64,000 bases of DNA from Chrysophaeum taylorii (taxonomy: Eukaryota; Sar; Pelagophyceae; Pelagomonadales; Pelagomonadaceae), in NCBI GenBank assembly GCA_029834535.1, contig JAQMWT010000347.1, positions 1-64,000 of the forward strand, given 5' to 3'. The position numbers and the translations under genes were made by a program. The notes beneath the pieces were generated by a model, which saw only the letters and a list, made by a program, of their open reading frames with translations, was not told where the DNA came from and did no database searches. Below are positions 5,258 through 35,148 of the stretch, one piece after another (positions within the stretch are counted from its first letter, which is position 1; every line of letters begins with the position of its first letter).

Positions 5258-6590
5258 AACTGTATCGGCTAAAACATCGGCTAAAACATCGGCTAAAACG
5301 GTCTCGGGGGGGGGGCGTAGGAAAAGAAGACGTCGTCCCCGACGTCAACTCAAAAGGTCTAACGTCATCATCGTGAACTGCCCTGCAAGACATGCACATT
5401 GAAGAATGGGGGGACACTGGAACCTGCGGCGTGGGTTCGTCGGTCTCCGAATCTGAGTCTTCCCAGTAGCGCGGAGAATCCAAAGTTGCATCTGATATTG
5501 CTTCCACATACGATGTAGAAGGCCACCGAACGATCCGAGCGTTGGTGGTATTTTGCTCCTGTTGCAAGCGATGGCTGCTCGTCACAGCGGCATCGGCAAC
5601 ATCATCGGAGACTCGGGCGGGGCGCGCCGTCGGGTAAAAGACAACTCCCGACGATGGCGGCGCTTCGCATAGAGATTGGAACGCGAAAGTTGCGCTCGAA
5701 TGTCCCGAACTATCCTGATATCGGCCTCCGTCATATTCGTCATCGCGCTGTCGATGACGTCTGCGCCGGCGCGAATTGCGACTAGAGCTCCGGCTATGGC
5801 GGCGACGGCGGGGGCTCGGGCTTGTTTGAGGAGTATTGGCCTTTCGATCAGGGCTCTTACTTCGATGTCGGCGCGACGATCGTCTAGAAGGTGATCGTCC
5901 GTCTCGCTGTCGTGTAGAAGACGACTTGCTATCCTTGATGCCTCTGACCTCGCTCACCATGGTCGCCATTGTGGTTCCAAGCTCGGTGAGGGCCGTTTGG
6001 ATTTCATTAGTAGGCTCCGATCCGCGCGTGGCGTTCGCATGAGATGCATCATCACGCTTCTCCCAATCGGAACGCGATATGGGTTGCTTCTTCTGTTTGC
6101 GAATGCGCTTCCACATCGCACAGTAATAACGGTCCGGATCGCGGTTGCAAACCACGCGATTTCCGTGTTCATCTTCATCATGGGTGGTCCAGAAGAATCC
6201 GCAGTCCTTGCACGTCTTCTTGCACCACCAAGAAGGATCTCGTAAGATCAGCGGATCCGTATTCCCAGACGGTTTATCCGCATCTTGCTTAGCTTGTTGA
6301 TCGGAAGTCATAGCTCGACCTCCCCGCCCTCGCGGCGGTTTATTCGATGTCGGATTAGGAGGCCCTTGGTCCTTCTCCTCCTCCATCAACTTTCGAAAGT
6401 CGATAATAAGCGCCACCATCGACTTAAAAGTCAAGTAACTATCAGGATGTCCGCTCCCCATAGTCCGCACATGGGTCCTGCGCTCCTTGGATGCCAACCT
6501 ACTGATAAGCTGGTCGAGGATATCGACGTCATCCATCGTGCGGCTGGACACGGTACAAAAAGCTAAAGCTTCACTTTGAATTTGGTACAA
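5130..6590 (-). CDS. gypsy-1 gag, C-terminal part with Cys/His cluster and RS-rich tail
   Basis: 486-residue frame continuing gag. Residues about 15-75 finish the capsid-like region. Residues about 120-165 hold a Cys/His cluster beginning WWCKKTCKDCGFFW with later His and Cys residues, a plausible zinc-binding nucleocapsid but not a classic CX2CX4HX4C knuckle. A long Arg/Ser-rich segment (about 225-290) resembles an RNA-binding tail. Near 5306-5315 a run of ten G (C on the coding strand) ends the sensible frame. Beyond it this frame reads an out-of-phase copy of a 13-bp triplet repeat, whereas the +1-shifted frame reads LADVLADVLAD and leads into the protease. The pol frame probably joins at this homopolymer. 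Confidence 0.75.
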   Translation of the reverse strand: MYQIQSEALAFCTVSSRTMDDVDILDQLISRLASKERRTHVRTMGSGHPDSYLTFKSMVALIIDFRKLMEEEKDQGPPNPTSNKPPRGRGGRAMTSDQQAKQDADKPSGNTDPLILRDPSWWCKKTCKDCGFFWTTHDEDEHGNRVVCNRDPDRYYCAMWKRIRKQKKQPISRSDWEKRDDASHANATRGSEPTNEIQTALTELGTTMATMVSEVRGIKDSKSSSTRQRDGRSPSRRSSRRHRSKSPDRKANTPQTSPSPRRRRHSRSSSRNSRRRRRHRQRDDEYDGGRYQDSSGHSSATFAFQSLCEAPPSSGVVFYPTARPARVSDDVADAAVTSSHRLQQEQNTTNARIVRWPSTSYVEAISDATLDSPRYWEDSDSETDEPTPQVPVSPHSSMCMSCRAVHDDDVRPFELTSGTTSSFPTPPPRDRFSRCFSRCFSRYSFGRSRADHSGADGGEVDGNVRFDGRETKIVRRDKGGSICASD

Positions 6591-7720
6591 TACGTTTGTA
6601 CGTGCCGCTCCCCAGACTTCTTCGGAACAGAAGACTGAGTGACCTTCCGCAGCTTATCGAGCAGCTCCTGCTGCGTGCTCGGAGGTCGGCAAGTCGATCT
6701 AAAATAATCCAGAATTTTGTCACAGTACGTCTTATTAAGACGACGGATGCGACGAACCGAGGCTCCATGCTCTTCGTCGTCAGCATCCAATTTCAAGTAA
6801 AACGACGGACCGTGCGGTAGCTCATCGCAGAGCTCCTCGTATTTCCGCAAATGTTCCTCAAAAATTGGTGCAACGGTATCCCGCAAATGCACCGGTAATA
6901 GGTAACGTGATTTCTCGACCGAGTAATGGTCATCCGCTAAAGTATGCATCACCGCTGCCGAATCCAGATTGAGTTGCCGTTGATCTCGGCCGTCGATGAC
7001 GAGTTTGAAGTTGTCAGGCTTCAAACTGGAAGTGGGGCGACGGGATCGGCTCAAGTTGGCCTTTTCGAAGGCGTCCGCAACCGTCTGCGATAATCCCCGC
7101 GATAATCCCCGTAAAAATTTCGTACCTTCATCCTCAGTTTCCGCCCTACCCTCAGTCTCCGTATCGACTCGGGGCGGAGGTTCATCCCCCGTTTCAGTGT
7201 TCCTTTCCGGTTCAGGCTGCCTCACGGGCGTTTCCGGTTCGGGTCGACTCACGGGTCGTTCGCGGCTACTCTCACGACGCGTACGTTCGGCTAACAATTC
7301 ATCTCGTTCACGACGAAATCGTTCAACCTCTTCACGTAGGGTCTTCGTTGTCTCAATCTCTTGCTGCAATGCGTCATTGAGCATGTCAACTTCTCGTCGA
7401 GCCGCCTCCTCTTTCGCTTCAGCCCTTTCACGGGCAAAACGCTCAGCTAATCGTTCATTTTCGCGACGTCTCCGCTCGAGGTCTTCACGAAGTCGACTTC
7501 GGGCTGCAGATCCGCGCTCAATCGTAACACGCTCGCCACGGTCCGGGGTCGTTGGACTCAACGGCGAAAAAATGGCAGTATCCGGAGGCACGTCAGGGGG
7601 CAAGTCAGCAACGTCGACTGCCTCGGCCTCTCTTAATTCACCTTCCTCGCGGCCTATCTCAGGGGCGGCGGAAAGAACCGGAGGAGATTCGTCCTCACGC
7701 ACGTCTGCGTCTGTATCCAT
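6563..7720 (-). CDS. gypsy-1 gag, N-terminal part
   Basis: 385-residue frame that begins the element's gag, the structural protein that packages the RNA in a cytoplasmic particle. The start is the first ATG after the leader. Residues about 1-65 are acidic. Residues about 75-150 are a strongly charged E/R/K-rich stretch with heptad-like spacing, a likely coiled coil. A Pro/Glu/Arg-rich hinge follows, then a globular region (about 230-385) of the kind seen in retrotransposon capsid proteins. The frame ends inside the capsid and overlaps the next gag frame (5130-6590) by 28 nt, so a frameshift separates them. Assignment rests on position and composition rather than a signature motif. Confidence 0.75.
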   Translation of the reverse strand: MDTDADVREDESPPVLSAAPEIGREEGELREAEAVDVADLPPDVPPDTAIFSPLSPTTPDRGERVTIERGSAARSRLREDLERRRRENERLAERFARERAEAKEEAARREVDMLNDALQQEIETTKTLREEVERFRRERDELLAERTRRESSRERPVSRPEPETPVRQPEPERNTETGDEPPPRVDTETEGRAETEDEGTKFLRGLSRGLSQTVADAFEKANLSRSRRPTSSLKPDNFKLVIDGRDQRQLNLDSAAVMHTLADDHYSVEKSRYLLPVHLRDTVAPIFEEHLRKYEELCDELPHGPSFYLKLDADDEEHGASVRRIRRLNKTYCDKILDYFRSTCRPPSTQQELLDKLRKVTQSSVPKKSGERHVQTYCTKFKVKL

Positions 7721-10709: not shown

Positions 10710-10873
10710 TTGTCTAGGTGAGTAGAAAGCGGAAGGGAAGGGGCAAGGATGAGGGACAGCCGCATTAAGTCGGAGAGAAAACCCTAATGAGAGATAGAGG
10801 TATGGTGTATGGTGCGAAGAGCTCCAGAGCGTCGTACATGTTATGAATCGACCCTCTGGACAACTAACCTAAG

Positions 10874-11071
10874 TAGAGATAGAAAATTTGAATTAGGGTT
10901 AGTACCCACCTATTCAAGGGTTAGTTCCCTTAACTTTAGCACCTTTTGATTTAAGAAAACGCTGTGTTATTCACACCGGTTGTCCTCGTTTTAGGATATA
11001 GATTCGAGGGCAGACTACCACCGCTCTCTCGCTCTGCTGAAGGGTAACACAGTTGGAATAACTGTTCTCTA
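10874..11071 (+). repeat. copia-A 5' LTR
   Basis: Starts TAGAGATAGAAAATTTG and ends AACTGTTCTCTA. About 95 percent similar by eye to the 3' LTR at 34944-35139. The 6-bp inverted ends replace the usual TG...CA. Confidence 0.88.
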
Positions 11072-11155: not shown

Positions 11156-13807
11156 ATGCCAACCAATCAAGAACTCCAAAAGGAGATAAGAGAACAAGAA
11201 GCTCGCTTAGAAGCCAAGTACCAAAGAGACATGCAACAACAAGCTCAAGCGTACGAAGCTCGGCATCAAAAAGAGATTCAAGACCTTCGCGATATGCTGA
11301 TACAAATGCAAGCTACGCAAGGAGCACCACCACCTGCCGTCGCTGCTGCGGCTCCACCCCCCACTCCAGCTCAACAAGACCCCAAGACCAAGGCTAACAC
11401 CTTTAGTGACCCACCTAGCGCCGTCCTCAAGTCAATGGACTCCGCGCAAGTCACACCCCAAATGCTTTCGTTTCGCGTTATGCAGTTGTTCGTCGAACAT
11501 CAGATGCCTGAAACCGGCATAACGCAATACTTTTTGCAGGGCTTCTACACGTGGGAATCCGTCTTGCGTGGATCTAATGATCTCGCTGACGCTCTTCTCA
11601 GCCACTGCATCAAGGAATACGACAAGGACCCCGACCACCACGCTACTGCGGGGAACACGCAAGATTCCCAAGGCCGTTCCGTCTACTAACTAACTAACTT
11701 CAGACCTCTCCCGAGCATGGGAGCCAGGCCGGACCGACAGGAGCCAGTCCGGAATCACGGGCCTGTAGACGAGGGGCGCCGAAAGGTGGGTCGGCGGAGA
11801 GTGATTATCAAGCTTGTCGCCATGCGACGAGGAGACCGCGATGTGACTGACAACCAACTCGTCGATAACCTTACGTCTGCGCCCCGCGGCCATACCCCGT
11901 CCCACTGCGAACGTTCCGGCTGCCAATCGGCCCGCCCGGGTGGCGAATAGGTGCCAACCTACGCCGGGAGGGCGGATGCCCTCGCAAGGCTCAGGATTCA
12001 TGAGGCACCGTCCTCCATCGCAACCATGCGGTTGGCGATCAGGGTAAGGGTACTACAAAGACATATACCGCGAGTTCGGTAAACACTTCTTGGAGAACGT
12101 CTACGAGCCTAAACACCAATAACTTAAAGACCAAGACAAGGACACGACCGATACGACGAAAGGTAAGTTGTATCCGAACACTCAACATCACCTCCAAGTC
12201 TTCTTGGAGAACGTCTACGAGCCTAAACTCCAATAACTTAAAGACCAAGACAAGGACACGACCGATACGACGAAAGGTAAGTTGTATCCGAACACTCAAC
12301 ATCACCTCCAAGGAAAAGAAGCCGACTTCATCGCGTACCTCCGCGAGACCGTGCACCCCTCTTTCGCCGTTTCCTACATGCCGGTAGCGACTCCGTCAAG
12401 CACCCAGCATACGACGAAATTGACGCACTCGGATCTTCCCATCCGACAGGACTCGAATTTGTACTCCAAGTTCGCGTCGCACTTGACAAGCACACGGGCC
12501 AGAACCACGTCCACCATGCGCATTATGTAAATAATGCCTTCCTGGACACGCCGTTCAACCCGGAGATCCACGAGCCTGCGCATTATATAGACCACATGCG
12601 CCATGTTCAGCAGCAACTCCGCCAAATCACCAACGATGCCTCTCTCCAACTTCCCGACGACAAGATCCTCGAGGAAATCCACCAAATTCTTCGCTTCAAG
12701 TACCCCCCAAGCTTGCTTGACTCCCGCGCCCCAACGCATATCAAGGGCTTCGCGCGTCTTGCCATTTGTCTACGTACTCCAAACGACTCGCTATTACTCG
12801 ACGAAGACAAGGAAGCTATTAACCATCTTCCCAGGCTGATCGCCCGCATCACGGTTATCTCCACCTTCGAGCGCAGCTTTTGGGCTCACCTTGAGCCTCA
12901 TCCCACCCCCAACTTCAAGCCGTTGCGATTCGTCACTGACTTTGGTCGTCTACCGGCCAAGGACAAGGATAATCCACGTTTTCGCTCCCGCCGTCATGGT
13001 CTCCACTTCACAGAAGAAGAAGACACCCCCTCTGAAGATGACATCCCTCCGGATCCCAATGAAGCCTCCAATGACGACGCCGAACCTGTTGCCGTCTTTC
13101 TCACTGAAGCCAACCTCGATGAAGATGACGACAATGATCTCATCCAACACCTTCACGCCTATAGAAAGAAACAGCTCACGCGACATCCCAAGAAGCCCCC
13201 CCAAAAAAAAGCCTCCCAATCCTCGCTCTCCGTCGTACTATGACATCAATGACAGCCCCAAGCCCAAGGCTCCCCCTGTCACCCCAACGAAGAACAAGCA
13301 AAACCCCCGGGCAGCTCCTGTCACCCCCGACAAACGCGAGCACCCGCACCTTCGCAAGGTCACCTTCCCCACCCAGCCGATCCACCAAAGCCATCTACTC
13401 CTGACCAAGGATTCAAGGTCCCTCTTCGTGAAGTCCGTCGCAAGCTCCAAATCACACGGAATCTGAGCCAAGCCGGCCGCCAACATACGTCCAACTCCGA
13501 GCGCATGAGCAAGTTAATCAACCTCATCACCACTATCACCGATGAGATACTTCTCTCCGAAGCAGATTGCGATGCCGCGGAGTTTCTTCCGGTGCTATCG
13601 TCCGATCCTCAGGATGATCCACCTGATGAGGGCGAAACTGACGAAAAAGATGACCTAGGCCACCTCGGTTTCTATGATGACAACGGACAGCTAGGCCTCT
13701 ACGACGACACCATCCCCGAAATCAATGATGATGACTCCGCCGAAGACTACGCACAACGCCACAGCGACTACATGCGTGCTCTACACCAGAGTCAGCTTTT
13801 TCGCTGA
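11156..13807 (+). pseudogene. copia-A gag, interrupted
   Basis: Begins MPTNQELQKEIREQEARL at 11156 with a Gln/Glu-rich coiled-coil start (residues 1-60) and a Pro/Ala linker. The frame runs to 11685 where a TTAG-tailed retroposon is inserted; the reading resumes at about 12051 with YKDIYREFGKHF. A 114-bp tandem duplication follows. Then come 12596-13243 (215 residues, helical, acidic towards the end), an overlapping frame to 13466 and a last acidic frame 13505-13807. No zinc knuckle is visible. Each frame change is one or two bases, so this is a single decayed gag. Assignment is by position between primer-binding site and protease. Confidence 0.7.
11690..12050 (-). mobile_element. TTAG-tailed short retroposon, copy S1
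   Basis: Minus-oriented copy of the roughly 350-bp family: tail (CTAA)3 at 11690, 3' hairpin block CCGGACTGGCTCC.., and 5' end CCCTTACCCTGATCGCC at 12050. It interrupts copia-A gag. Flanks share only CTAC/TAC, so the target duplication is short or decayed. Confidence 0.8.
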
Positions 13808-14463
13808 TGGTTGCCGACGACGCCTGTGCCGCCAACCACATCCTGCTCAATCAGGCACCAAGCCTCACGATGACGAGTTTCCCGACCTCATCAACAATCT
13901 CCCCCAGAGTCGCAGATTTTCTTTGTGCCACTTACACTCCAGGAAAGACATCAAAGAAGACTAACTCGCTGCACGGATGCAATGGACCCGGCACTGAAAC
14001 TTCTTTAATTGACGGTGGCGCATCATTTTGCTTCACTCGCACAATTCAACACTTTGTTCCCGAGTCCATACGCCGGATTCCCGAACACACCATACGTATG
14101 GGAAGAGGCACCTTAACCAGCCATTTCATCGGTGTCAAACCGTTGTATTTGCAGGCCGCAGGTCTCTCCTCAAAGGATATAAAAGAATCCACAGGTCACG
14201 TTTTGTATTTGCAGGCCGCAGGTCTCTCCTCAAAGGATATAAAAGAATCCACAGGTTACGTTTTATATCTCGTCTTTCTGGTCGTCCCGCAATTCCGAAA
14301 ATGTCTACAGGTTATAGCGACATCTCCGCTCAAACCTCTGAACGTACAAGCAACCGACCCGCCATTGCCACACGAACCACACCTCTACGAGCTTATGAAC
14401 ACGTCGACCGCAGATCCCCACGATTATAAGACGCTTCTAGGGAAAACAGCAGTAGTTATCGCC
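13807..14463 (+). CDS. copia-A aspartic protease
   Basis: ETSLIDGGASFCFT at about residue 60 is the retropepsin active-site strand (hydrophobic-DxGA-S), here IDGGA. The domain cuts the polyprotein. A 20-residue in-frame tandem duplication (60 bp, at 14143 and 14203) lies downstream and reads LYLQAAGLSSKDIKESTG twice, likely a slippage scar. The frame then enters the short retroposon S2 at 14464, so the sequence after residue 219 is not protease. Placed between gag and DNMT. Confidence 0.78.
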
Positions 14464-14801
14464 GGCGGCCCCGGCCGTCCCGGAGTGAGACGGTGCCTGC
14501 TCGCCTCCCGGGCTGGCCGGTTAGCACCCGGAAAGTCCGCGCTGGGATGGGGTTCGCTCGGTTGGGCAGAACGCGACGGACAGGTCGATTGTTCGTGGAC
14601 CAACACGTCCGCGGCCTGCGACGCTTTTGCACGACCTCGCATAAGACCGCGCGCAGTGGCGGTACACCATCAACAAGTCCGTCCTCGTCCCTCGCCTCTG
14701 CCCCAACTGTGTGATTTTCCTCTGTGATTCCGTACCGGCTCCTGCCGGTCCGGCCTGGCTTCCATGCTCGGGAGAGGTCTGAAGTTAGTTAGTTAGTTAG
14801 T
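14464..14801 (+). mobile_element. TTAG-tailed short retroposon, copy S2 (subfamily 2)
   Basis: Begins GGCGGCCCCGGCCG and ends in (TTAG)n. It is flanked by an 11-bp duplication TAGTTATCGCC at 14453-14463 and 14802-14812, partly merging with the tail. It matches copy S7 at 49385-49776 and is truncated at its 5' end relative to it. Confidence 0.88.
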
Positions 14802-14812
14802 TAGTTATCGCC

Positions 14813-16700
14813 AATCGCCAAACCAATGGCCTGTTGTCCCTGCCGTCTCATCCAAAGCAAACATTCCGCGCTGTGCTTAGTTTCCACACCGGAACGCGAA
14901 TGTCACTCAAAGATGAGCTCGCACACATCACGCAGCATGTCGCAAAGACACGCTCGCAATCCCATATGTTAGATTTCGCAAAGTTACAGCATCATTCAAT
15001 ATTTCTCTCGGAACTCATTAGCCTCCCGCGTGCTGTCGTCCAATATGCATTCACTGGCCCAGCGAACCTCTATGTGCTAGCACACCCCCCCCCCGCTAAA
15101 AACAGCCATTATTGCAGGTGGACTCCACCAAGAAGGCTTCACCTCTTTTCGCAAACGCTTCGACAACCATATTACTGTCGTGGTCACCTGTGAAATTCAC
15201 CCTATCATGCGCGCCCGCGCGCAACAATTCTCCCCGCACGCTCAGCATTATGCGGATCTAAGAAAGCTCAATGCCGCTCTGTAAACCGGCAAAATACGAC
15301 TACCTCATTTCGACTTGGCAGTTTTCACACTGCCATGTCAACATTTGAGTGTAATGAAAGAATACGATGGCTACGCCACTCTGGTGACCGCCGACCTTTT
15401 CGTCACAGAACAAATCCGCTTTGTTCGTTGCACGCTCCCAACCTACGCCATTGTCGAGAACGTCCCTCCCAACCCCCGAACTCATCACGAGTACACCCAA
15501 CTCGCCAAATGCTATCAGCGCTTAGGTTACTTCAGACACTCCGGTGTCTACAATGCCTCCGCTTTTGGCGACGTCATAAGCAAGACCCGCTATCTCGCTG
15601 TCTATGCCCGCCACCCGCTCACCGATTACAACCTCGAGAAAACCGCTTCTCCTTGGTTACTATCTCCTCCGAGCATGGTCCCCCTCCTGGACCCCCGTCA
15701 CACTATCCCCAACGATCTCTGGATCGCCAACCCCGCCCTTCGTGGCACCGTGGCCCGCTCCACCTTGGCTTATTACCAGCACAAGGCCACCTTTTCCTAC
15801 AAACCCGCCAACGCCTCTAAACTCTCGATTTCCGAAAATGCCCGCATCTGTCAAATGCTTGCACGCTTCACCAAGCCCTTCACGGATCTAGGTCTAGACG
15901 CCGACGGCACTCCCTATTCTACCATGACCAACATCTCCCATCTCCTGGTTTTCGCATTGCTGCACAATCACTTGTCGCAACATCCAACTCTCGCCGCTTG
16001 GAACACTCTCCGCTGTTTTCATGCCTCAGAGTCTCAATGTGCTTACCATTTGGATGGAGCCATCACCGGCACTGTCGCTACTGCCATCGCCTGTGGCTAC
16101 TTCCCGCGCGCCTCCGTCACTCTACACTCCAGGCCCCCTATGATATTGGACTGTTCCCACCAACCCGCAGTCTTCTCCCCAACGCACGCCTTTTCCCTGG
16201 ATGTTCCCAAGGGCACCGCCTTTCTGGTCGTCGCCTACACCACCTCCTTGGCCGCCGCTCACAGCTGCTCGCGCCCCTCCACTTGGGTCCACTACATGAA
16301 TCGCTCGCATCCTGGCTTTGCCGCGATCGACTCACGAGGGCGAGCTGTTCTCGATGACCCCAAGGGACTCATAATGTCCAGAGCACGTTCCACTTACGCG
16401 GACTATGTCGGCCACATCGGAGACACGCTTCAGAAAAGCACTAAGCGCTACTCGGTCACTGGCTCGTACCCAACCAACACGAGCTACTCCAATGCCTTGC
16501 TGCTGATCTCTCCAGACCACATCCGCTATGCGACTCTCAACGAAATCGCAAAGTTCGGACACCACTCGGACCCGGAACTGCACCGCCTGTTCCAACAGCA
16601 CCCGCCGTACTTCGCGTTTAAGGCACTGGCCAGCGCCGTCCCGCACAACATGCTGCTGGCCAAGTACAGCGCTGTCCTCGCACTCCACGAATCGCACCAC
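14813..16700 (+). pseudogene. copia-A C5-cytosine DNA methyltransferase (DNMT)
   Basis: All core DNMT motifs read in order. After a C10 run (15085-15094) that shifts the frame, 15096 onward gives TAIIAGGLHQEGF (motif I), TCEIHP (motif II acidic residue), then LAVFTLPCQHLS (motif IV, catalytic Cys codon 15336-15338). IVENVP follows at about 15450 (motif VI, ENV), NASAFGDVISKTRYLAVYAR at about 15550 (motif VIII), RYATLNEIAKF near 16530 (motif IX) and ALASAVPHNMLL near 16640 (motif X). The 300-residue gap between VIII and IX would be the target-recognition region. One in-frame stop (TAA 15282-15284) and the C-run shift break this copy. The domain would methylate cytosine C5 with SAM. It lies directly after protease and before integrase in the same polyprotein. 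Confidence 0.88.
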
Positions 16701-16959
16701 CACGTGAACTTTCACATCGAATGGGCAACAATACGCAATGGCATCCCCAGCCCAGGAGACATCACCCAGGTTGCAGAATTCTTCCTGAACATCTCCAGCC
16801 GTCTCTTAGCAGAGGAGGACCTCAACCTCACCTCCCTCTTCAATGCCGTAGCAGATGCTCACCATGATGCGATCCGCAAGCCAAGCAAATCGAAAAACCT
16901 CGAGACGTTACTTGCAGAGGCAACCGTTGCTAAAGTCCGAGTTGACAAGCGACCCAGCC

Positions 16960-18097
16960 CCCCCAGCGCTTCGACTGCCGCTCTGCCCCCCTTGCACAAG
17001 CCCGGCACCATTCAGCACGCCAAAAGAGTGCTTTTGGTCACTCGCTGGTACCGCATACACCACCAGCAACCAGAGATTCTTCGCCGCACGACTGCCGCTA
17101 ATGTAACGAATCTCCGCCCAGGTGATGATCGATATCTGCAAGACTGCAGCGAATGCAAGCGCTGTAAATCGCATGTCAGCTTCATTCACAAGAACACTTC
17201 CTGGTCACAGGATGAACTAGCCTATGCTCCTGGCCAGCATCTCCATATGGATGTATCATACCCGAGCATTACCAAATGCCATGGTGGCTTTCGTTACATC
17301 ATGCATTTTGTGTGTATTATCTCAGCACACAAATGGGTATACTTCCCGAGGAAACTAGACGCGCAGGACGTTCTGGCTGGCATCCTCTACATGGTCAATG
17401 TGATTAAGGTCGAATTCGATGTAAATGTGAAAATCATCTCGTCCGATGCATTTTCCACATTCCGCTCCGAAGCATTCCACCCGCTCAAGGTGCAACTCGG
17501 TATCCAGTTTCAAATCCTTGATCGCCACCTACACCAGCGGAACTTCGCGGAAAACACCATTAAGGAAAACACCCGAGGCACTGTAGTTCGCCTCCTCAAC
17601 CTGCGCAGTGTCCGCATCGAAGGAAAGCCCATTGGCGCCGAGTATTATCACCCATTTGCTCTGCTGCATAAGATCCAAGCCGACAATCAGCGCTCTCATG
17701 GACTGCCCTCGCGCACAAACATGACCTGCACCGTCCCCCGGCGCATCATGTCACCCATGGCACCGCTCTTGAAGCTCCTTCCCTTTGGCGAACCTGTCAC
17801 CTTTGTCTACCCTCGAAGTCACAAGCTGGAACCCTCCAGCGTCTCCGCCTCCTATCTTGACAGCAACAATTACGTCCCAAACCTCCCCGGCACGGATCGA
17901 TTTATCCGTGATGTTCATAGCTCTATCCTGCTTGTACATCAGGGGCGATATGGAAAAATCGTCACATCTAACCACTTCCACGTTGATGCAGATATGCCAG
18001 TCAACCGCAACAAGGAGATCGAACGGATTAAAGCACTCACGCAGATCCCAACAGAGGCACGGCAAGAGGACCCACTCCCAACTATAAGCGAACAGCA
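16960..18097 (+). CDS. copia-A integrase
   Basis: Part of the continuous 15315-18320 frame. An HHCC zinc region is read from TRWYRIHHQQPEIL to CSECKRCKSHVS (about 17040-17175). The catalytic triad is HMDVSYP (Asp codon 17250), ISSDAF (Asp 17445) and FAENTIKEN (Glu 17550), with 35 codons from second Asp to Glu, as in DD35E integrases. A C-terminal region rich in basic and acidic patches follows. It inserts the cDNA into the genome. The first Asp to second Asp spacing (65 codons) is normal. Confidence 0.88.
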
Positions 18098-18659
18098 ATG
18101 CCGGAAGCTAGGCAGGAATCGAAAAATGAGGGCGAGACTCATGATGACGACCAGGATGACAAATCCGACGATGACGACGAGCACAAAGAACCGGATCCAA
18201 CCTCCGCTGCTGATCCAAGTCCCGTCAGCGACGAGACGCCTGAACAGGATTTTTCGTTCCTCAACCGGCCACCTCCGCCGGATGGTAGCATTCCGATGCC
18301 CAAACGAAAGGATCGCCTAGAGGTTGTTCTCGACGATTCAGGTTTTACCCCGGTTCTCGTGCATCGCAACCAGAGTGACGAACACAAGGCAGATCTCAAG
18401 GACGAGCGCGGATTCCGCATTCCCAAGGACCAACTCTATATCGTGAAACGTGTCGACGATGGAAAACTTTTCACCAGACGCATTATCGCTTCAGAGTATG
18501 GTCGCGACTGGAAATACCAACAGGAGCAATCCACGGCTCGCGCCACAGCCAACATGTCCAGCACATTGATGTTCCTCATCAGTGTCAGCGCTCTGCACCA
18601 GGGCCATGCCGTCAGCATCGCATCTGATCTCAACATTAGTGGGGATGCTAAGACCCATT
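18098..18659 (+). CDS. copia-A pol downstream of integrase, acidic linker with RT-like stretch
   Basis: 196-residue frame overlapping the integrase frame with a shift. Residues 1-50 are highly acidic (repeated DDD/DDE). Then KDQLYIVKRVDDGKLFTRRI and a later hydrophobic run ending SIASDLNIS resemble in spacing the RT entry (KxKxDxDGxxxRYKAR) and the first Asp block. However, a full RT that must belong to the same element lies at 32976-34906. It could be a linker or a remnant of a second RT; I cannot decide. The frame ends where the GC-rich block begins. Confidence 0.45.
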
Positions 18660-19810
18660 CTTTACCGGGGGCTTATCCTTATTTTTGAATCGATTTTTTG
18701 GACGCAAAAATAAGGAGTCATTCTTTACCCACAGACCCTTATTTAGAGATATTCGGTCCCCACGCGACGTGCGCCTGCGTGGTCGCCAGTTCCGTGGTAC
18801 TGAACGACTCCAATCTCGGGCCGCACGGGCAGAAGCGTCCCGGACTGACGAGCGCGACGACTGGGGCGCGTGGATGTCCGGGACGTCGGACTGATTTGGG
18901 TGTAATGAGGGCCGAAGACTTCGAGCTTCAGCTTGAGGGTCGACACGAGCTCGAATACCTGGCCTTGCGAGCACGCCGACAACGCGGGATAACGGCCCCC
19001 CACGCAGAGGTAGTCCGCGGTCGAGGCGTTGCGCGTCGCGCTCAGCCACAGCCACTCCCACTTGTCGAGCGCGAGCCGCAGATCGTGCGCACAGAAGCCG
19101 CATCTACTGGCCGGCGTGACCGAAGCGCGCGAGTTATCCTCGGTGAAGCCCGACGCGATCATCGTGTCGAAGAGGACGATTTGCACCGTTACGCCGCGGG
19201 CGTCGAACGTCTCGTCGTGCCAGTAGGAGCGGATCGCGGTGTCAACAAGAACCGCGCGCGAAGCACGCGAGCGACAACCACCTTTGAGCACGCGAACGAC
19301 GCCCGGCGCGAGCGCCGCCTCCGGCGCGGGGGCGCGAGCTGCGCCTGCGGCGCGAGGGGCAGCGAGCAACGCCCGCGCAGGTATCGCAGGAGCGGCGCAG
19401 CGAAGGGCACGACGGGACATCCGCTACGGATCGAGGACTGGAGCGGCGCGAACAGCGACGCGGAACGGCGGCTCGAGCGTGCAGCTGCGGTACGGGGCGC
19501 GACAAGCGGCGCTCAACGCCCTCGGCACACGAACAGCGGAAGTGAACTTCAATTGCAGCTCAGAAAGCGCTCTAGAGCGGCGATGCGGCGCCTTTCAGCT
19601 TACCGAGCGCCTTCTGAGTGCTTCTGTGCCGACCTCATCGAAGCCATCTTCTTCGGCGCCGTCGTCGTTGTCGTCGACCGGCTCGCACCGTCGTACACCT
19701 TCCCGCATCGATCAAAATAAGGACCAGACTGAAAATAATAGAGGCTAAAAATAAGCAGCCTATTTGATCGGCCTTGTTTCGATTCAAGTTTTTGGATCGC
19801 AGCCAATTAA
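18660..19810. other. GC-rich block inserted in copia-A
   Basis: Abrupt rise in GC from about 18770 to 19710, bordered by A/T-rich edges with repeated AATAAGGA words (18705, 19717) and a shared TTTTTGGA near both edges. I see no clean terminal repeat or target duplication. It separates copia-A linker sequence (to 18660) from the 19811-20157 remainder, so it was acquired after copia-A formed or was captured by it. Confidence 0.5.
18743..19420 (-). CDS. Unrecognised protein in GC-rich block
   Basis: 225-residue minus-strand frame. Residues 1-45 are Ala/Arg/Pro-rich. Residues about 55-165 have ordinary globular composition with several Cys and Trp, for example DTAIRSYWHDETFDARGVTV and CGFCAHDLRLALDKWEWLW. 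The plus strand has a longer frame (18698-19720) of Arg/Ala-rich low complexity, more likely its shadow. No family recognised. It may be a fragment of a captured host gene. Confidence 0.35.
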   Translation of the reverse strand: MSRRALRCAAPAIPARALLAAPRAAGAARAPAPEAALAPGVVRVLKGGCRSRASRAVLVDTAIRSYWHDETFDARGVTVQIVLFDTMIASGFTEDNSRASVTPASRCGFCAHDLRLALDKWEWLWLSATRNASTADYLCVGGRYPALSACSQGQVFELVSTLKLKLEVFGPHYTQISPTSRTSTRPSRRARQSGTLLPVRPEIGVVQYHGTGDHAGARRVGTEYL

Positions 19811-20157
19811 GCCAAAAACAAGGCTGCAGCCCGCGGTAAGAACAGGTCTAAGCCGCTGTGATGTCTGAGGATGTGTCCAACAAATCGCCACACAAGACGT
19901 ATTGTGCGGGCGGCACTGCACTGGATCGAGAAAGAGGCGACGCAGAACTCTTACGTCGACTTCCCAAGAAGCCGTACAACTCATCATATGGGTCGACCAC
20001 CGGACATCGACATTTGTTCTCAGGCACATGGTGTTACCCGACAGACTTCACCGGCAAGAGTAAATGCGTCAATGGAACCAAGGCTTCTGTTGCGACCATC
20101 TAACATAGGACATCTCCAGCGCATCAGCATACCAAGCGCTCGTCACGGACATGCCAT
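19811..20157 (+). other. copia-A remnant between GC-rich block and copia-B
   Basis: 347 bp without a clear domain. It borders the copia-B 3' LTR, and its partner sequence resumes at 32970. The bases GCCAT (20153-20157) and GCCTT (32970-32974) are the probable target duplication of copia-B, one mismatch. Confidence 0.5.
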
Positions 20158-20455
20158 TGCAGAGCATTTAGCAAGCAGTGGTAAGTCACCTGGGGCTCCG
20201 TGCTCATCATGAACGTCTGGATGTATTTAATTCGGGGAATGAAAGATGTTCCCTATATCATCAGAACGACAGGCGGCATCTAGAACTACTCGATGAGTAA
20301 AGTGTATAGGTGCTACATTTTATAAGGACGCGCTAGACCATGATGATGAGCGTGCACATCAGAGGACTATTTGATTGTGTAGAAAGGAAGAAGAAGGGTA
20401 AGGAAGAGATCCGTTCTCAACGGACGGATAAGGTAAGAGGCAGCAGATTTCTGCA
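20158..20455 (-). repeat. copia-B 3' LTR
   Basis: Minus strand TGCAGAAATCTGCTGCC... to ...GCTCTGCA. Similar to 32568-32969 apart from small indels and the retroposon insertion there. It keeps the empty site AAGCAGTGGTAAG (20173-20185) for retroposon S5. The purine run CGAGTGGG just before it is a candidate polypurine tract. Confidence 0.88.
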
Positions 20456-22919
20456 CCCACTCGAGATGTCTTAAGCGCAGGGTGCGACTATAGAGCATCT
20501 CTGAAGATGGATGATGAAAGAAGGAAAGAAGGAGCATACAGTCTTGATGGTCGCAGAGGTCACATAGAAGCATCAAGAGTATAGCAAGGGTATGTAGGGC
20601 AGGACTTGGACTTGGTGGAGCTGAAGTCGACTTGACGCTTTGAACAGAGCATTAGGAACACAGGTACGACAGACAGTGTGTTAAGGCTATCTGAGGTGGC
20701 GGACATCGTTACTGGTTCGGAAAGTTGTCGGTATCGTCTTCGCCAGCTTCTTGCTGTCAGGTGGTGACACCAATAGCAAATGGTGGTACCATACGAAACG
20801 TGAGTGCAAGTAAGCATTGGATGGATGGCACTGGTGAGTCAAGTTGTAGGGTGTCATTGGTTTCCAAGTGGACTCAGCGAACGGATCCGAGAAGATAGAA
20901 GGGTCTTCCGATTCACATGTGAAGGAGATGCTTTGAATACACGAGACAACTTATCAGCGCAGATTATGGAGGTGATCGTCCGGGAGGACGGTTGGCGGCA
21001 TATTGGTCATGAGCATAGAGTTAAGCGAGACAACGGTTTGTGAGATCTTGTACAGAGTATGCGCAACGTGCATTGGCTGTAGGAAGGAAGAGCCGGTTTC
21101 TCCAGGGAGTAATTGAAGCAATGGCAGCCTCAGATCGTGCGCAGAGATAGATTCTAGCATGAGGTGGTGACCTTGCGGCTATGTAGGCATTTGTTTCCTG
21201 GAGTTGTCGACTTGACGCAAGGCATCGACATCATCGACGAAGCAGAAAGACAGGCTGTGTCGATGGCGAAGATGACTTTGCGTAGGTTCTGATGTGGAAG
21301 TGATGGATTTAACGACGTTTCGTCAACACATGGCGTGCAAGCAGGGGCATTCGCGTTTAGAAGTAGAAGAGTCTTGTTGTTCGCCGGAGTATAAGTGATG
21401 ACCGAACGATCAGGAGGTGATGGCGGCTTTGGATCATCTGAGGATGATACGTAGTCGTCCAGATGTTGTGCCCACGATTGGGCAACAGTATTAATCACAT
21501 GGTGTTACCCTTACCCTGATCGCCGACCACATGGTTGCGATGGAGGACGGTGCCTCATGAATCCTGAGCCTTGCGAGGGCATCCGCCCTCCCGGCGTAGG
21601 TTGGCACCTATTCGCCTCTCGGGCGGGCCGGTTGGCAGCCGGAACGTTCGCAGTGGGACGGGGGTATGGCCGGGGGGCGAAGACGGAAGGTTATCGACGA
21701 GTTGGTTGTCAGTCACATCGCGGTCTCCTCGTCGCATGGCGACAAGCTTGATGATCACTCTCCGCCGACCCACCTTTCGGCTTGCCTGTCTACAGGCCCG
21801 TGATTCCGGACTGGCTCCTGTCGGTCCGGCCTGGCTCCCATGCTCGGGAGAGGTCTCAAGTTAGTTAGTTTAGTTAGTTATTTGGAGGGCTTGAACATAG
21901 CGCGAGCTTGAGCACGCGTTTTCGAACAAGAGTTTACAAAAGTTAAGATGCTCAAGGTGCATCTGAGTAATAAGCCGAAGATCCAGTGCGAATAGCAGGA
22001 ATCTGAGCGCATCGGTTACCGATAAGACTTCGTGAGCAAGTGACGGATGTTGCGCTAGATTGCTAGTCAAAAAAATTGTAGCTCCTTTGGCAAATGACGA
22101 TGCGTATGATGGTGCGCATATGACCAGCTGACACCATCACAGAAGGATTGGAAAAATGCATGCGAGCACATACGATGGGTTATAGGCACCTGATCGTGTT
22201 GTGCGCACAACAAGTATTTCATCGTGATATTGAGATGGAGATGTGACCATTCTTCTTATGGTCGTCCGTGTTGAGGTGACTCAGCACTTCAGTGGGGAGT
22301 TCACGAGGTGCGTGACTTCGATTATATGTGGTAGAGGCAAGGAAGGACGGTTGTCCCAAATCATTGAGCATTGCGTACAGTAGGATGACAGAATGAAACG
22401 TTCGTTTGGGGCCTCTGTAGCAGCCAATAGAAGCAATAGCAGGAGCAGCTTCCCAAAATGCGTAATGGGTAGGCGCATGGATATGAATGTTGTTAGTTCC
22501 ACAAACAGTGAGTCAGTAGACGATAGATCGAGGTGAGTGCCGTAGGGACACTCGCTAAAGAAGAGAAGAAGAGAAGGGTGACAGGGACACGGAAGTTCTC
22601 AAGAGATAGAGTTCCCGTTCAAACAGGGAAAATCCATGTTGAGGCCTTCCTGGAGTGTTAGGATTGATGTAAGATAAGTTCAGCTGGTGTCGGTGAGACA
22701 ACAGCAGCCTGGGAGGTAGCAGGGTGACAGTGGTCATGGTTTGTCGCTTTTGCGACAACTTGGGAGAAGGCTCGGCCGTGGAAAGCGAGCGTGGAATTGT
22801 CCTTCGAACGACTGGAGGAGATACGGCCACGGCCACAGGAGTGCCAAGAAAAGACATGAGCGACACTCACACGCGTACAAAAAAAATTTGTGGCAAAGAG
22901 GTAAGGCCAGGGCTATTTG
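20456..22919 (-). other. copia-B 3' region without recognised domains
   Basis: About 2.5 kb (about 2.1 kb without retroposon S3) between RNase H and the 3' LTR. Minus-strand frames at 21154-21498 and 20560-20817 are Thr/Ser/Pro-rich and unrecognised. Because a TxxSLN(stop) motif lies at its border (22943-22920), it may once have encoded a further polyprotein segment. Confidence 0.45.
21495..21882 (+). mobile_element. TTAG-tailed short retroposon, copy S3
   Basis: Plus-oriented full-length copy: 5' end CCCTTACCCTGATCGCC near 21505, 3' end GTCTCAAGTTAGTTAG.. near 21875. It shares the CTCAAG variant of the tail joint with copy S4. No clear target duplication. Confidence 0.8.
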
Positions 22920-22955
22920 CTAGTTTAACGACGTTGCGGTCACTAGGGTTAGGCA

Positions 22956-23349
22956 TCTTCAATCCTGTAAGGTTGTCGTCAGAGGCATGATGCATACCGA
23001 GTAGAAAGCAAGGTGGAGAACCAGGCAGCAGTGGCTTGTAAAACCATCCGCCACGTTTAGCTTGCCTGGAACATGATGGACTCGTATTTTCTGAAGCGAT
23101 ATGTACTCTCGGATTTTGAACCATCTGGTCGACAGTGCCTTGGATCGAGGGACCCATCTGGTTATTAGAGGTGTGAACAGCGGCAGCATTGTCAGACAAG
23201 AGGGTGGCTTCTGATGAAGCGCATATCTTCAGCAATTGGGTTGTCATTGTCATCGAAGTCAACAGGGTCAGCGGTGTTCTCACCATTAGCATTGTTGACG
23301 TAGAAGGTGGGGTTGACGACAAAGGAGAGTTTGCAGCTTGCGTAGCCAA
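22956..23349 (-). pseudogene. copia-B RNase H, frameshifted
   Basis: LLSDNAAAVHTSNN carries the DN acidic pair of copia RNase H. After a frameshift the other frame (23189-22959) reads WFKIREYISLQKIRVHHVPG and LNVADGFT, matching the family ending (hIREhV..g.I.v.yVpt..nvAD..TK). An upstream fragment (23380-23192) belongs to the first half. Frameshifted in at least two places. Confidence 0.8.
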
Positions 23350-23380
23350 ACAGCTTCATCAGCACAAATACTGAGGGCAA

Positions 23381-24775
23381 TCAACTCAGCTTCGTGAGTT
23401 GAGCAGGAGACAATCGGTTGAAGTTTGCTTTTCCAACCAATAAGGCAGTTGAAAAGATAGAAGACAAACCCGGTGGTAGATTTCCATCTTCCTGTGCTAA
23501 GGAAGGGGCGTTGTCAGCGTCAACCATGGCAACTAAGGGGTCAAACTGTCCAGTAGATACATCCTGCGGTTGGTAGTCGACCACAGTGGATAGATCAATT
23601 CGATTAGCGGAGACAGTGCGAAGGTGAGCTTCAATGGCATTACAGGATGGAACCAGAGGCGAAGTGAGCGGTTTCCGGCTTCTTGAGGTAGCGAAGCAAA
23701 TGCTCTAGCATTTGGACGTGAACATACGTGGGTGCATGCATACCACGCGAACATCTAAGGCTTGCGAGAAGTCAGGTCTGCAGGCAACTTGCATGAACAC
23801 CAGCGCCAAGGAGGGTGGCAAAGTGCAATTGATGTACAACTCTGTTTCAGAGCTGGGAGTGCCATCTTTATACTTGAAGGACGATGACATAGGATATTTA
23901 AGCGGGGTCAGTTGCTGCAAGACTGGGTGATCAGCAAGGTTCATCCAGCTTGGCTTGCACATCAGAGAAATGGAACCGTCAGATGTGCGACACACACGCA
24001 TGCAGGAGGGTATGGACAGGTTCAAACTGCTCTACAGCATACCGTTTGTGGAGGGCATCCTGTATTCAGTACGAAGAGGGTCGTCATTGGACACAACAAC
24101 AATGTCGTCTACAGACAGACTGCATACGACGAACTTAGCATGTGCGGATACTCGAGCATATAGGCAAGAGTCCGAATGCAGGCGTTTGTAGCCAAGGCTA
24201 CGGAAGAAGCCGTCTATCTCTTTGTTCAAAGAGATGGTGATTGCCGAAGTCCATAAAGTGACTTCAGCAGTTTCGGTAGACGTCGGCCCTTGTACTTAGC
24301 GTCATCGGGGTCGATAAGCTTGATGCCGTCTGGTAACTGAACATAGACGTTGGCATCAATGTCAGACTGAACGAAGGCGTTCGGGACGTCTGCATGGTAG
24401 ACAGGCAATTGCTTGTATGCTGCAATAGCTAGTAGTACCCGGATTGCGGTCATGGTGGCCATGGGGCTGAAGGTGCCTAAAAAATCGGCGCCAAGGATGC
24501 TAGGAAGCCACGTAGCACGAGGCGAGCCTTGTGCTAACGTATTTGCCTGCAGAGTCTGTTTTAATCTTCAGCACCATCCTGCTGTCAATAGGACGAGAGA
24601 CACCGTCGGGTAAGGAAAGTTTGAAGCAGCCAAAGCGGATAATGTCGTGGAGTTCCGGCGATGGCCTTGAGGTAGGCGTGCCTGTTTTCAGGCGACAAAC
24701 CGTGGAGGCACTTGAATTTATATTCGTCAATGGAAACGTCAGCTTCTTGGACCTTATATTCGTCAGGACCAACAA
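23381..24775 (-). pseudogene. copia-B reverse transcriptase, frameshifted
   Basis: Successive frames (24775-24500, 24462-24226, 24229-24032, 24025-23705, 23584-23381). Seen in order: SRPIDSRMVLKIKTDSAGKY (fingers), MTAIRVLLAIAAYKQLPVYH with Asp in ADVPNAFVQSDID (first catalytic Asp), LPKLLKSLYGLRQSP, and CSLSVDDIVVVSND (YVDD box, Asp-Asp intact), then CRPDFSQAL. At least four frameshifts. It copies element RNA to DNA. Confidence 0.85.
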
Positions 24776-24786
24776 TGGCTGGTGAA

Positions 24787-24812
24787 TTATAGTTTAGCGA
24801 CGTTGCGGTCGA
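24787..24812 (-). other. TxxSLNY motif before copia-B RT
   Basis: Minus strand encodes STATSLNYNSP in the RT frame, at the integrase/RT boundary. One of four similar motifs in copia-B (others at 30313, 26917 and 22920). Candidate protease cleavage site by analogy with the retroviral SQNY/P type of site. Confidence 0.6.
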
Positions 24813-25122
24813 GGCAGTGTGCGCAACTTCGGGATAAGCGGAAACAGCGTCAGTAGGAGTAGTAGAGGCAGATTCCAGTTGAATATGGATAGTAGGGTCG
24901 GTGTGTAAGACCTGGTGATAAACTCTGTAGAGACCAGAAGGTATTCCTCCAAGTCAGCCAGAGATGCAGAAAGCGCCAAACTCGGAGGAGTGTGATCAAT
25001 AAAGCTGGTCGGCGCCAGGTACGTAAGTGCATATGTAAGGAAAAGTGCCAAAGGCAGCAGCGTGTTCAGTGAACGCAGATAAAAGGGCTGAGGAATGGGG
25101 CACGCAGGTGAACCATCAGCAG

Positions 25123-26399
25123 TTAAAAAGTTGCAGCTGGGATGCTGGATGCGCACTTGGCGTGGGCGAAGTAACCATCGACGTGCGGGTAGCGGGCAAG
25201 TAAGTCACGCAACGGGAGAAGAAGACGAGCTAACAACGCATGTTCCCCCTCTGAGCAGATAGCAGACCGGAGGATACCACCACTGAGATGAAGGGCGGAG
25301 GGGCGGGAGACTTGAACGTAAGAAAGTGGTGGCGAAGATCCCAGCGGAAATCGGCGAGTTTGCCACCAGCGGCTTTGTAAGCACCAATAGTAGACGCTTG
25401 TAGCCGGGCTTGGATAGTTTTCATAGAAGTGGCCTTGCGGGTGTTGGGCTGTTTGGAACCTGGGACAAGAATGAGTCATCTTGTGCAAAGGTCTTTGTAA
25501 GAAGGAAGCAAGGGCGGCGGTGACATAGAGCCAGAATCGTCGGCGAGAGTGTAGAAGAGGGAGAAGAGGCAGGAGCAGGGGACGAAGAATGAGCTGAAGG
25601 AGGTGGGAGTGCCCCCTCGGAGGATGAGTAGTCCGTATCCCCCTCTGAATGACATGGTATGGTGTGAGCGAGAAAGGCGCGGGAGGAGCGTGAGGCGGAG
25701 GAGCAAGTTCAGGATCAGGAGTAGGATGCTGAAGCATGTAGAGGAATTGCAGCTTGGACGAAACACGAATTTGTCCGTTTTCAGGGTTGAGGACGACGTC
25801 AGCGAGATGGTCGACGCGTGGGGAGACGAGCGGGTTTGCGCGTTGGCGCAACAGAGATAAATATTTGCGGCGGCACGGTTCCCGTGGTGTTCATGGGGCT
25901 CCAATAAAAGGTAACATTCAGCGCCAAAAATCTTGAGCATGTCATGTTGGGGAGTGTTGAGTTGGTTGTAGAGTAGCTGTTGCGGACTCAGGATAGCATG
26001 ATGAATGCGCTCGAGCGTGGCGTTCGGGAGAAGGTTGTAGCTTTGGACGGTGTGTATCACCGCCCACGGAAACATGATGGCTGGTTCCACGATCTTGGCG
26101 CCACGATAGTGAGCATTAAGGAGAGAACGAAGGCGAGTTGAGGAGGCGGAGGCGATGAAACCGATGGCGGACTCAACTTCAAAGTTAAAGTGGTGCATGT
26201 GCGGCGGGAAGGCGATGAGTTGAATGCCCTTATCGACGCGGTACGGGGAGGTAATGTGCTGGCTAAAGTAGGGCTTGAAGGCATCGGAGTAGAGGGTGCG
26301 CATGTGCACGTTGAGTTGTGTACTACAACAAAAGTCATACACAAAATCCAGAGCGTGGGTGAACTCCGTGGCGTTGGTGGTGCGTGTAAAGTACACCAA
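25123..26399 (-). pseudogene. copia-B integrase core and C-terminal region
   Basis: Frames 26399-25476 and 25851-25123. LYSDAFKPYF holds the second catalytic Asp and HHFNFEVESAIGFI the Glu. The region around FPWAVIHTVQSYNLLPNATL and the GAECYLLLEPHEHHGNRA block are typical integrase C-terminal landmarks (GxxhY.p...r.K...R). The last frame starts the region leading to RT. Frameshifts separate it from the zinc and first-Asp part. Confidence 0.82.
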
Positions 26400-27024
26400 G
26401 AGACATTTCGAAATGATTTCCTTGAAGACGATGATATGTGAAGCCTCCCCATTCGGATGGGATGGTCACATAGCCGCCGTCGCACGCCCAGACTTCGCCG
26501 GCTTTGTGAGTTTGCTCAAAAGAAGGCTTGGTCGCATTGAAATGCTTGTGCGGGTGGCGCTTGTTGTGTGCGATGCAGTCGGTGCATAAGTCGCGATATG
26601 GTATGTCAGAAGCAGAGAATCCAGGGCGAGCAAGTACGTTGGGGGCCTTGGCAGCGACGTTGTCGGGGCAGTGATGCACCCGGTGGAAGCGATTGGCACG
26701 TTCTTTGGTATTGAGATATTCGGTGGATCCGTGTGCGAGAGACTTACGAGGAGTGGGATGAGCGGGAATATGCCGTTTGCGCCGAACATCGAACTTGAGT
26801 TCGGTGTCTAAGGCAGGGGAAGGCGGTGCGTCGTCATCCCGGTGCGCAGCAGGGTCACTTGGAGGAGCGTCCTCATCATCACGAGTAACGAGAGTATCTT
26901 CGTAGGACGAAGATATATAGTTTAACGACATTTCGGTCAAGCAGTTGCTGGAAATAGACATCAAAAAAAAAATCTTGTGCCAAAGACAAGGTATCTGTGC
27001 TGCACGTGGTGGAAGCATGATCAA
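26335..27024 (-). CDS. copia-B integrase N-terminal zinc domain and first catalytic Asp
   Basis: 229 residues. LTEMSLNYISSS at the start is a TxxSLNY motif (26936-26912). The zinc pattern runs FHRVHHCPDNV to CTDCIAHNK (His, His, Cys, Cys). WACDGGYVTIPSEWGG carries the first integrase Asp. The Met at 27024 is arbitrary because the protein is cut from a polyprotein. The catalytic core continues in the 26399 frame. Confidence 0.82.
   Translation of the reverse strand: MIMLPPRAAQIPCLWHKIFFLMSISSNCLTEMSLNYISSSYEDTLVTRDDEDAPPSDPAAHRDDDAPPSPALDTELKFDVRRKRHIPAHPTPRKSLAHGSTEYLNTKERANRFHRVHHCPDNVAAKAPNVLARPGFSASDIPYRDLCTDCIAHNKRHPHKHFNATKPSFEQTHKAGEVWACDGGYVTIPSEWGGFTYHRLQGNHFEMSLGVLYTHHQRHGVHPRSGFCV
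26912..26936 (-). other. TxxSLNY motif between copia-B DNMT and integrase
   Basis: Encodes LTEMSLNYISS in the integrase frame. The DNA core GACCGAAATGTCGTTAAAC is nearly shared with the three other sites. Confidence 0.6.
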
Positions 27025-27089
27025 CGGTCATGAAATTGGATACATAGGATTTCTTCGTCACGGCAGCAGTATGTTGGAAGGTAGGGTCC

Positions 27090-29259: not shown

Positions 29260-29274
29260 TGGGCGTGAAAGTAG

Positions 29275-30310: not shown

Positions 30311-30311
30311 A

Positions 30312-30337: not shown

Positions 30338-30339
30338 GA

Positions 30340-32969: not shown

Positions 32970-32975
32970 GCCTTC

Positions 32976-35139: not shown

Positions 35140-35148
35140 CTAAGACAA

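Follow-up and report, generated by a model that had tools for sequence, protein, structure and literature searches.

A copia element with a methyltransferase domain in its pol frame

The stretch of DNA analysed here (64,000 nucleotides, hereafter the window) carries an LTR retrotransposon, copia-A, in whose pol frame a first-pass annotation made from the letters had read a cytosine DNA methyltransferase (DNMT) domain. The features of the element, by position in the window, are as follows.

10869-10873, plus strand: target-site duplication CTAAG, left
10874-11071, plus strand: 5' LTR of copia-A, with TAGAGA...TCTCTA ends
11156-13807, plus strand: gag region, interrupted by an inserted repeat (~11690-12050) and by breaks in the frame
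13805-13809, plus strand: TGATG, overlap of the gag stop and the pol ATG
14008-14025, plus strand: protease motif IDGGAS, in pol
15105-16655, plus strand: predicted DNMT domain (motifs I to X), its frame interrupted once, by a stop at 15282-15284
15105-15140, plus strand: DNMT motif I, AIIAGGLHQEGF, degenerate relative to FxGxG and kept among copies
15324-15350, plus strand: DNMT motif IV, FTLPCQHLS, with the catalytic-type Cys
15450-15470, plus strand: DNMT motif VI, IVENVPP
15573-15611, plus strand: DNMT motif VIII, VISKTRYLAVYAR
16524-16556, plus strand: motif IX-like stretch, beyond the Pfam hit
16629-16655, plus strand: motif X-like stretch, beyond the Pfam hit
17178-17897, plus strand: integrase region (rve 18.6 bits, below the cut-off of 32.6)
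18653-32969, no strand assigned: nested insertions, including a minus-strand copia-B, that split pol and leave 110 pol residues unmatched
33084-34006, plus strand: copia-type reverse transcriptase (RT)
34944-35139, plus strand: 3' LTR of copia-A
35140-35144, plus strand: target-site duplication CTAAG, right

The LTRs and the CTAAG duplication with which the first-pass annotation had bounded the element were both confirmed, and the two LTRs are 94.9% identical over 198 columns, with 8 mismatches. Pol starts with the ATG at 13807; its alignment stops at 18652 and picks up at 32970. The RT profile PF07727 scores 133.2 bits in another copy of the element (L011) and 39.9 bits in the window at 33623-34903 (cut-off 31.6), and integrase lies upstream of RT as expected for Ty1/copia, with rve scores of 18.6 and 17.2 bits against a cut-off of 32.6. 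The LTRs, the target-site duplication and the RT profile together identify copia-A, judged from its sequence, as a Ty1/copia LTR retrotransposon. The window copy itself cannot work, given the stop in the DNMT domain, the repeats inserted into gag and into the stretch from protease to DNMT, and the break of pol by about 14 kb of insertions.

In 19 of the 20 copies that could be aligned, out of 21, the gag stop and the pol ATG share the sequence TGATG, which suggests that pol may be made by termination and reinitiation instead of frameshifting. A short repeat that ends in AGTTAGTTAGTT (or ACTAACTAACT) lies at ~11690-12050, 14464-14794, 21506-21870 and 27842-28123 and has inserted twice into copia-A; it is SINE-like or introner-like. 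Two tandem duplications look recent, one of 113 bp in gag (99%, 12086-12312) and one of 60 bp in the protease region (98%, 14143-14262).

Motifs and profile evidence for a cytosine methyltransferase

Canonical DNMTs have FxGxG as motif I, PCQ in motif IV, ENV in motif VI and an arginine in motif VIII. In the window copy of copia-A, motifs I, IV, VI, VIII, IX and X lie in a single frame with a single stop, between protease and integrase. The extent proposed for the domain held in part: the DNMT is present, but it starts at about 15105 and not at 14813, the stretch 14801-15070 aligning to the protease/spacer part of pol. Motif I of copia-A is without the canonical FxGxG. Motifs IX and X are similar stretches in the expected order that show no conservation contrast with their surroundings, and order, spacing and conservation among the copies would be the basis of their assignment.

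A search of the translation against the Pfam DNA methylase family, the check proposed in the first-pass annotation, gave a positive answer: PF00145 matches window 15285-18317 with 27.3 bits (E = 3e-6, cut-off 22), over profile positions 57-163, which correspond to motifs IV-VIII and about one third of the profile. The score rises to 32.1 bits (profile 39-159) in the 1952-aa pol frame of L011 and to 34.6 bits in the isolated domain of that copy, against the same cut-off. PF00145 is matched by 11 of 13 copia-A domain copies (best E 9.6e-9), the matches in L011 and the domain copies covering motifs II-VIII; it exceeds the Pfam cut-off at many genomic loci, and up to E = 1 the 13 copies match no other Pfam family. 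NCBIfam gave no methyltransferase-type match on the L011 pol.

A profile built from the 13 copies retrieves seven distinct PDB sequences up to E = 1, all of them cytosine methyltransferases: six are M.HhaI variants and one is labelled "cytosine-specific methyltransferase" (E 0.046-0.16), with alignments that rest on motifs IV, VI and VIII. The window domain as a single sequence found no relative in the PDB, and an AlphaFold2 model of the domain from a single sequence has a mean pLDDT of 30.2. We regard the motif and profile evidence as confirming that window 15105-16655 encodes a predicted cytosine-5 methyltransferase domain within a copia pol.

The domain is retained across the copia-A family

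We searched the genome (70.8 Mb, 697 contigs) with window 15285-16703. The search gave at least 100 domain matches, a lower bound since 90 of the 699 first-look candidates were scored. Among the 100 matches listed, 23 span the full query of 473 residues; 17 of them, the window copy included, are free of stops. Intact copies, for which the first-pass annotation had advised a search, thus exist, and L011 carries DNMT, rve-like and RVT_2 stretches in one open pol frame of 1952 residues. The opposite outcome, loss of the domain in every other copy, is contradicted by its retention in many of them. Two pairs of contigs (C25/C521 and C10/C297) show near-identical match coordinates and look like duplicated or haplotype contigs.

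Twenty loci of 9.9 kb (L009-L028) were taken for comparison. All 20 contain the copia-A LTR, which has the orientation of the DNMT in 19 and the opposite one in L021; it is fragmented in L010 and L013. A second piece of LTR turns up 8.9-9.3 kb further on in three loci (L012, L022 and L028), at the edge of the 9.9-kb stretch, and from these copies with both LTRs the distance between LTR starts is about 9 kb. The best aligned DNMT stretch is stop-free in 16 of the 20 loci, three of them incomplete (L022 from residue 60, L023 to residue 512 and L027 from residue 2, of 520).

The linkage of domain and element was also followed from the RT side. A search with the RT gave at least 135 matches (131 of 1476 candidates scored), and the first 56 listed were paired with DNMT matches, drawing on 94 of the 100 matches of the domain search and 21 of the 124 of the PF00145 search. 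A DNMT match lies 1.5-6 kb upstream on the same strand in 40 of these 56 RT copies. Seven of the 16 others were viewed over 1.1 kb each, and nine were left out: four of the seven hold parts of the domain, one has a reversed RT-like piece and two are without a pol match. DNMT sequence is therefore found upstream in at least 44 of the 56 RT copies.

Purifying selection on the domain

Selection was assessed on 21 copies, the window and L009-L028, with pairwise dN/dS taken as a ratio of means. The values in the DNMT domain are 0.19 (motifs I-VIII), 0.21 (middle) and 0.22 (IX-X part); elsewhere in pol they are 0.10 for integrase, 0.25 for RT, 0.27 before integrase, 0.23 for protease/spacer and 0.23 for the linker. 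In the same three DNMT parts, the N/S ratio of changes common to two or more copies is 0.17, 0.19 and 0.13, against 0.65, 0.44 and 0.53 for changes private to a single copy. Shared ratios so far below private ones mean that missense changes were purged while the family replicated, and this pattern of substitutions shows purifying selection acting on the copia-A DNMT domain. The corresponding shared and private values are 0.08 and 0.60 for integrase, 0.09 and 0.74 for RT, and 0.16 and 0.58 for the linker; by shared N/S, constraint on the DNMT is weaker than on integrase and RT and similar to that on the linker. Retention, RT linkage and selection support the view that the domain is a fixed and selected part of the copia-A family.

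Within the domain, variation at motif residues is half that at the others (0.035 vs 0.068), a contrast matched by 2 of 517 circular shifts. It stems from motifs I-VIII (0.034 vs 0.097); motifs IX-X show no contrast in the 21 copies (0.038 vs 0.037). The Cys of PCQ is present in 20 of the 21 copies, with a gap in the other, the Glu of ENV in 19, its Asn in 18 and the motif VIII Arg in all 21. Four divergent copies (L051-L054), about 65-70% identical to L011 in the main aligned stretch, all keep PCQ, the EN of ENV (V altered in one) and the motif VIII core; motif I is kept in the three copies that cover it. Motif IX, covered in three, is disrupted in one and gapped in another, and motif X is kept in both copies that cover it.

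These patterns bear on the possibility that the domain is catalytically dead and serves pol as a nucleic-acid-binding or structural module. The degenerate motif I, the linker-like constraint and the lack of a variation contrast in motifs IX-X would fit such a role, but in motifs IV, VI and VIII the catalytic-type residues hardly vary, even at 65-70% identity, and the residues of motifs I-VIII vary less than the rest; we consider a dead module quite unlikely.

They bear as well on chance resemblance and on a passenger insertion into one copy. The Pfam match is modest, at about one third of the profile, and as a single sequence the copia-A domain has no relative at E 0.001 among 5.8 billion proteins. 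The domain is very divergent, and neither it nor, by profile, the gypsy DNMT described below has a relative in viral contigs; both collections are seemingly poor in eukaryotes, so this absence says little. Against chance stand the copy number, the selection, the linkage to RT and the specificity of the Pfam matches, which pass the cut-off at many loci and point to no other family. A one-copy passenger is incompatible with a domain found in many copies and upstream of most of the RT copies considered. We rule out both and see hardly any probability left in either.

Private changes in the 21 copies comprise 783 transversions and 765 transitions. Synonymous divergence differs about threefold between pol regions of these copies (dS 0.16-0.55), and this unevenness hints at recombination between copia-A subfamilies.

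Other LTR elements of the same genome carry DNMT or DNMT-like domains

Two further elements of the window have a DNMT or DNMT-like part:

~486-7720, minus strand: gypsy element, in which a protease-like part and RT flank a DNMT (2664-3649, in two frames)
28636-29259, minus strand: copia-B DNMT-like stretch, nested in copia-A

The gypsy frame of the window by itself scores 19.3 bits against PF00145, under the cut-off. The family is matched in three of three other sequences, namely the gypsy copy L035 and the second gypsy lineage L033 and L036 (best E 3.4e-10). The two lineages, 40% identical, keep F(A/S)GAGG, ASPPC, SR(T/V)RLL, PLTL and VPP. Between the window gypsy and L035 dN is 0.009 and dS 0.173; between L033 and L036 dN is 0.027 and dS 0.111. 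A search with the second lineage gave at least 129 matches in the genome (119 of 911 candidates scored). At E<=10 it had only two matches in a set of 5.8 billion proteins (E 0.41 and 0.66), both with PF00145.

The copia-B domain has at least 150 matches (150 of 912 candidates scored), and over 90 residues the RT of copia-B shares 42% identity with the copia-A RT. PF00145 is seen in three of four copia-B sequences with a best E of 0.021, below the cut-off, and one member matches DUF402 (E 0.064), so that Pfam is suggestive of a DNMT here. The window copia-B has PPY where six of six other copies have PPC. Of six copia-B pairs, two have a dS that can be measured, and their dN/dS is 0.09 and 0.15. 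All seven copies compared (from the window and L044-L050) have an in-frame TGA directly before the domain, with CTA after it in six. UGA-CUA is a context of efficient stop readthrough, and we take this TGA for a probable readthrough-type stop between protease and the DNMT-pol part. By eye, the translated frame of a further copia at 43348-47331 shows no DNMT motif.

By motifs and profiles, several LTR families of this genome appear to carry DNMT or DNMT-like domains: copia-A, copia-B and two gypsy lineages.

Host methyltransferases and the origin of the domains

The genome also encodes methyltransferases of its own. A host protein of 2080 aa (L032:986-7225, contig C621) is Dnmt5-like, with 1012.8 bits to PDB 7r76, an entry labelled DNA repair protein Rad8 that we take to be fungal Dnmt5. 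A host frame of 360 aa (L031, C634:8000-10600) matches PF00145 over 319 of 324 profile positions and is presumably Dnmt2-like, by its motifs. A light-harvesting-type frame overlaps the latter on the opposite strand; the best matches of known structure are VCPI-6, FCP8 and peridinin-complex chains. Beta-tubulin is encoded in one open frame. Together these genes suggest an algal host with chlorophyll-c-type antennae, perhaps an ochrophyte. The first-pass annotation had thought the host different from the dinoflagellates and charophytes. The 21-base dinoflagellate spliced leader has no exact match in the genome, but peridinin-complex chains are among the light-harvesting relatives; a host outside the dinoflagellates is likely.

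Neither host protein could be identified as the source of the copia-A domain. Motifs I-VIII score 32 against the Dnmt2-like protein (shuffled mean 31.0; 113 of 300 shuffles as high) and 34 against the Dnmt5-like protein (shuffled mean 32.2), in an alignment test that has little power, since even a bacterial DNMT reaches only 40, a score equalled or exceeded in 20 of 300 shuffles. Aligned to the Dnmt5-like protein, the copia-B domain gives 44 (3 of 300 shuffles as high), a hint that the two may be related, which would cut against a neutral view of origins. Copia-A against copia-B gives 47 (4 of 300 shuffles as high), and hhalign places their motifs in register over 210 columns (E 0.16, probability 0.37%); a common origin of the two copia DNMTs is at most suggested by these comparisons. 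Profile comparison with the gypsy DNMT returned nothing for copia-A (E 0.52) and E 0.045, with a probability of 1.2%, for copia-B.

No methylation footprint in the DNA copies

CpG is not depleted over pol: observed/expected lies at 0.98-1.07 in 21 of 21 copies. Private C-to-T changes on both strands affect 107 of 10727 CpG, 91 of 12192 CpA, 80 of 9747 CpC and 94 of 9395 CpT sites, with no CpG excess in the 21 copies; broken down by NCN context, the rate is nowhere above 1.27 times the mean. In the host stretches considered, CpG observed/expected is 0.87-1.45. With neither CpG loss nor an excess of C-to-T changes at CpG, lasting CpG methylation accompanied by deamination is not visible; the missing footprint is still compatible with transient methylation, with good repair or with an RNA substrate. 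The first-pass idea that the enzyme methylates the element's own DNA to pass host surveillance had been put forward as an inference, and the CpG loss or CpG transitions that it would lead one to look for are absent from old copies.

The domain could instead be an RNA cytosine methyltransferase that acts in the particle on the genomic RNA or the tRNA primer, with a role in stability, priming or packaging, and that leaves no mark on DNA. DNA copies without a deamination footprint are what this would produce, and RNA was floated as a substrate of the LINE enzyme by the authors of the 2018 study (PMC5890265). Against it, the best profile matches are DNA methyltransferases, and the score of copia-A with the Dnmt2-like host protein is at shuffled background, in a test of low power. 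We see an RNA enzyme as unlikely, though worth keeping in mind.

Action in trans, on host DNA or on rival elements, or as a curb on the element's own spread that spares the host, could be favored by the presence of several DNMT-carrying families side by side and of a Dnmt5-like host protein that might maintain the marks. It sits poorly with CpG ratios near or above 1 in the host stretches too, and we hold it to be very unlikely.

Proposed function

The reading that we prefer, at about even confidence, is that the domain is a working methyltransferase that acts during replication on the nucleic acid of the element itself, chiefly on cDNA. The DNMT would be made as part of the copia-A pol, travel with the reverse transcriptase, and methylate cytosines of the element's nucleic acid, most likely of the new cDNA, ahead of integration. 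The element might benefit if its incoming methylated DNA resembles host DNA, or if it is placed in a silent but tolerated state, the host having a Dnmt5-like enzyme. The methyl mark would have to be transient, sparse or well repaired, given that old copies show no CpG decay. In favor of this reading are the Pfam and PDB profile matches, the kept motif residues, the purifying selection, the DNMT matches upstream of RT and, as a precedent, the CG methylation by SymbioDIRS-Dnmt3 in yeast (PMC5890265). Weighing against self-methylation during replication are the missing footprint, the degenerate motif I, the variable motifs IX-X, the linker-like constraint, the lack of single-sequence relatives and the inactivity of the SymbioLINE and KnitGypsy domains in the same yeast test.

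A broader and more speculative proposal, which we think improbable but not far-fetched, is that LTR elements in this genome capture DNMTs as a general strategy. Two copia and two gypsy lineages would each carry a DNMT downstream of protease, and the enzymes would act in the particle on nascent cDNA or RNA, transiently and without a genomic mark. The readthrough-type stop of copia-B would tie the dose of enzyme to the dose of RT. If this proposal were true, it would amount to a retroelement modification system set against a host sensor of unmodified cDNA.

Comparison with known retrotransposon methyltransferases

Why parasites that are silenced by methylation should carry a methyltransferase of their own is a question raised so far by two published lineages (PMC5890265). 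In the genome studied here, DNMT domains occur in copia and gypsy elements side by side, many copies being open-framed, and the copia at 43348-47331 is a possible internal control in the same window. The question becomes testable, since elements that carry a DNMT can be compared with DNMT-free ones inside the same cell.

The first-pass annotation had cited a dinoflagellate copia as precedent. This was mistaken: the Symbiodinium DNMTs described in PMC5890265 sit in LINE and DIRS elements, and the Symbiodinium Copia is without a DNMT domain. A 2025 paper (PMC12344493) writes "LTR Copia and DIRS" while citing the 2018 paper. Beyond that phrase, the accessible texts of the open-licence literature, with bioRxiv and most subscription papers outside its scope, hold no description of a DNMT in a copia element. 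Retrotransposon DNMTs being already known, the copia-borne DNMT appears to be a new variant with respect to this open-licence literature. In yeast, two distantly related SymbioDIRS-Dnmt3 copies methylated CG, and the SymbioLINE and KnitGypsy domains were inactive, a result that the authors call inconclusive (PMC5890265).

Copia-A shares the traits of retrotransposon DNMTs: a domain in the coding frame, many copies and purifying selection. PMC5890265 allows a comparison with two sets of such systems. KnitGypsy-Dnmt3 of Klebsormidium nitens has, like copia-A, a DNMT in the Pol frame of an LTR element, many copies and purifying selection; it differs in being a gypsy element of a charophyte with a domain of the Dnmt3 clade, whereas copia-A is a copia of another host. 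SymbioDIRS-Dnmt3 and SymbioLINE-Dnmt likewise combine a retrotransposon DNMT with kept key residues and purifying selection; they are DIRS and LINE elements, and SymbioLINE, unlike copia-A, is CG-poor. The bacterial M.HhaI, the best PDB profile match, has the same order of motifs IV, VI and VIII with PCQ and ENV, but the match reaches an E of 0.046 only, and copia-A has a degenerate motif I, a much longer middle and a fusion to pol. The two gypsy lineages of the same genome also place a DNMT in an LTR element, and differ from copia-A in their gypsy type, a near-canonical motif I (GAGGSTLG) and ASPPC.
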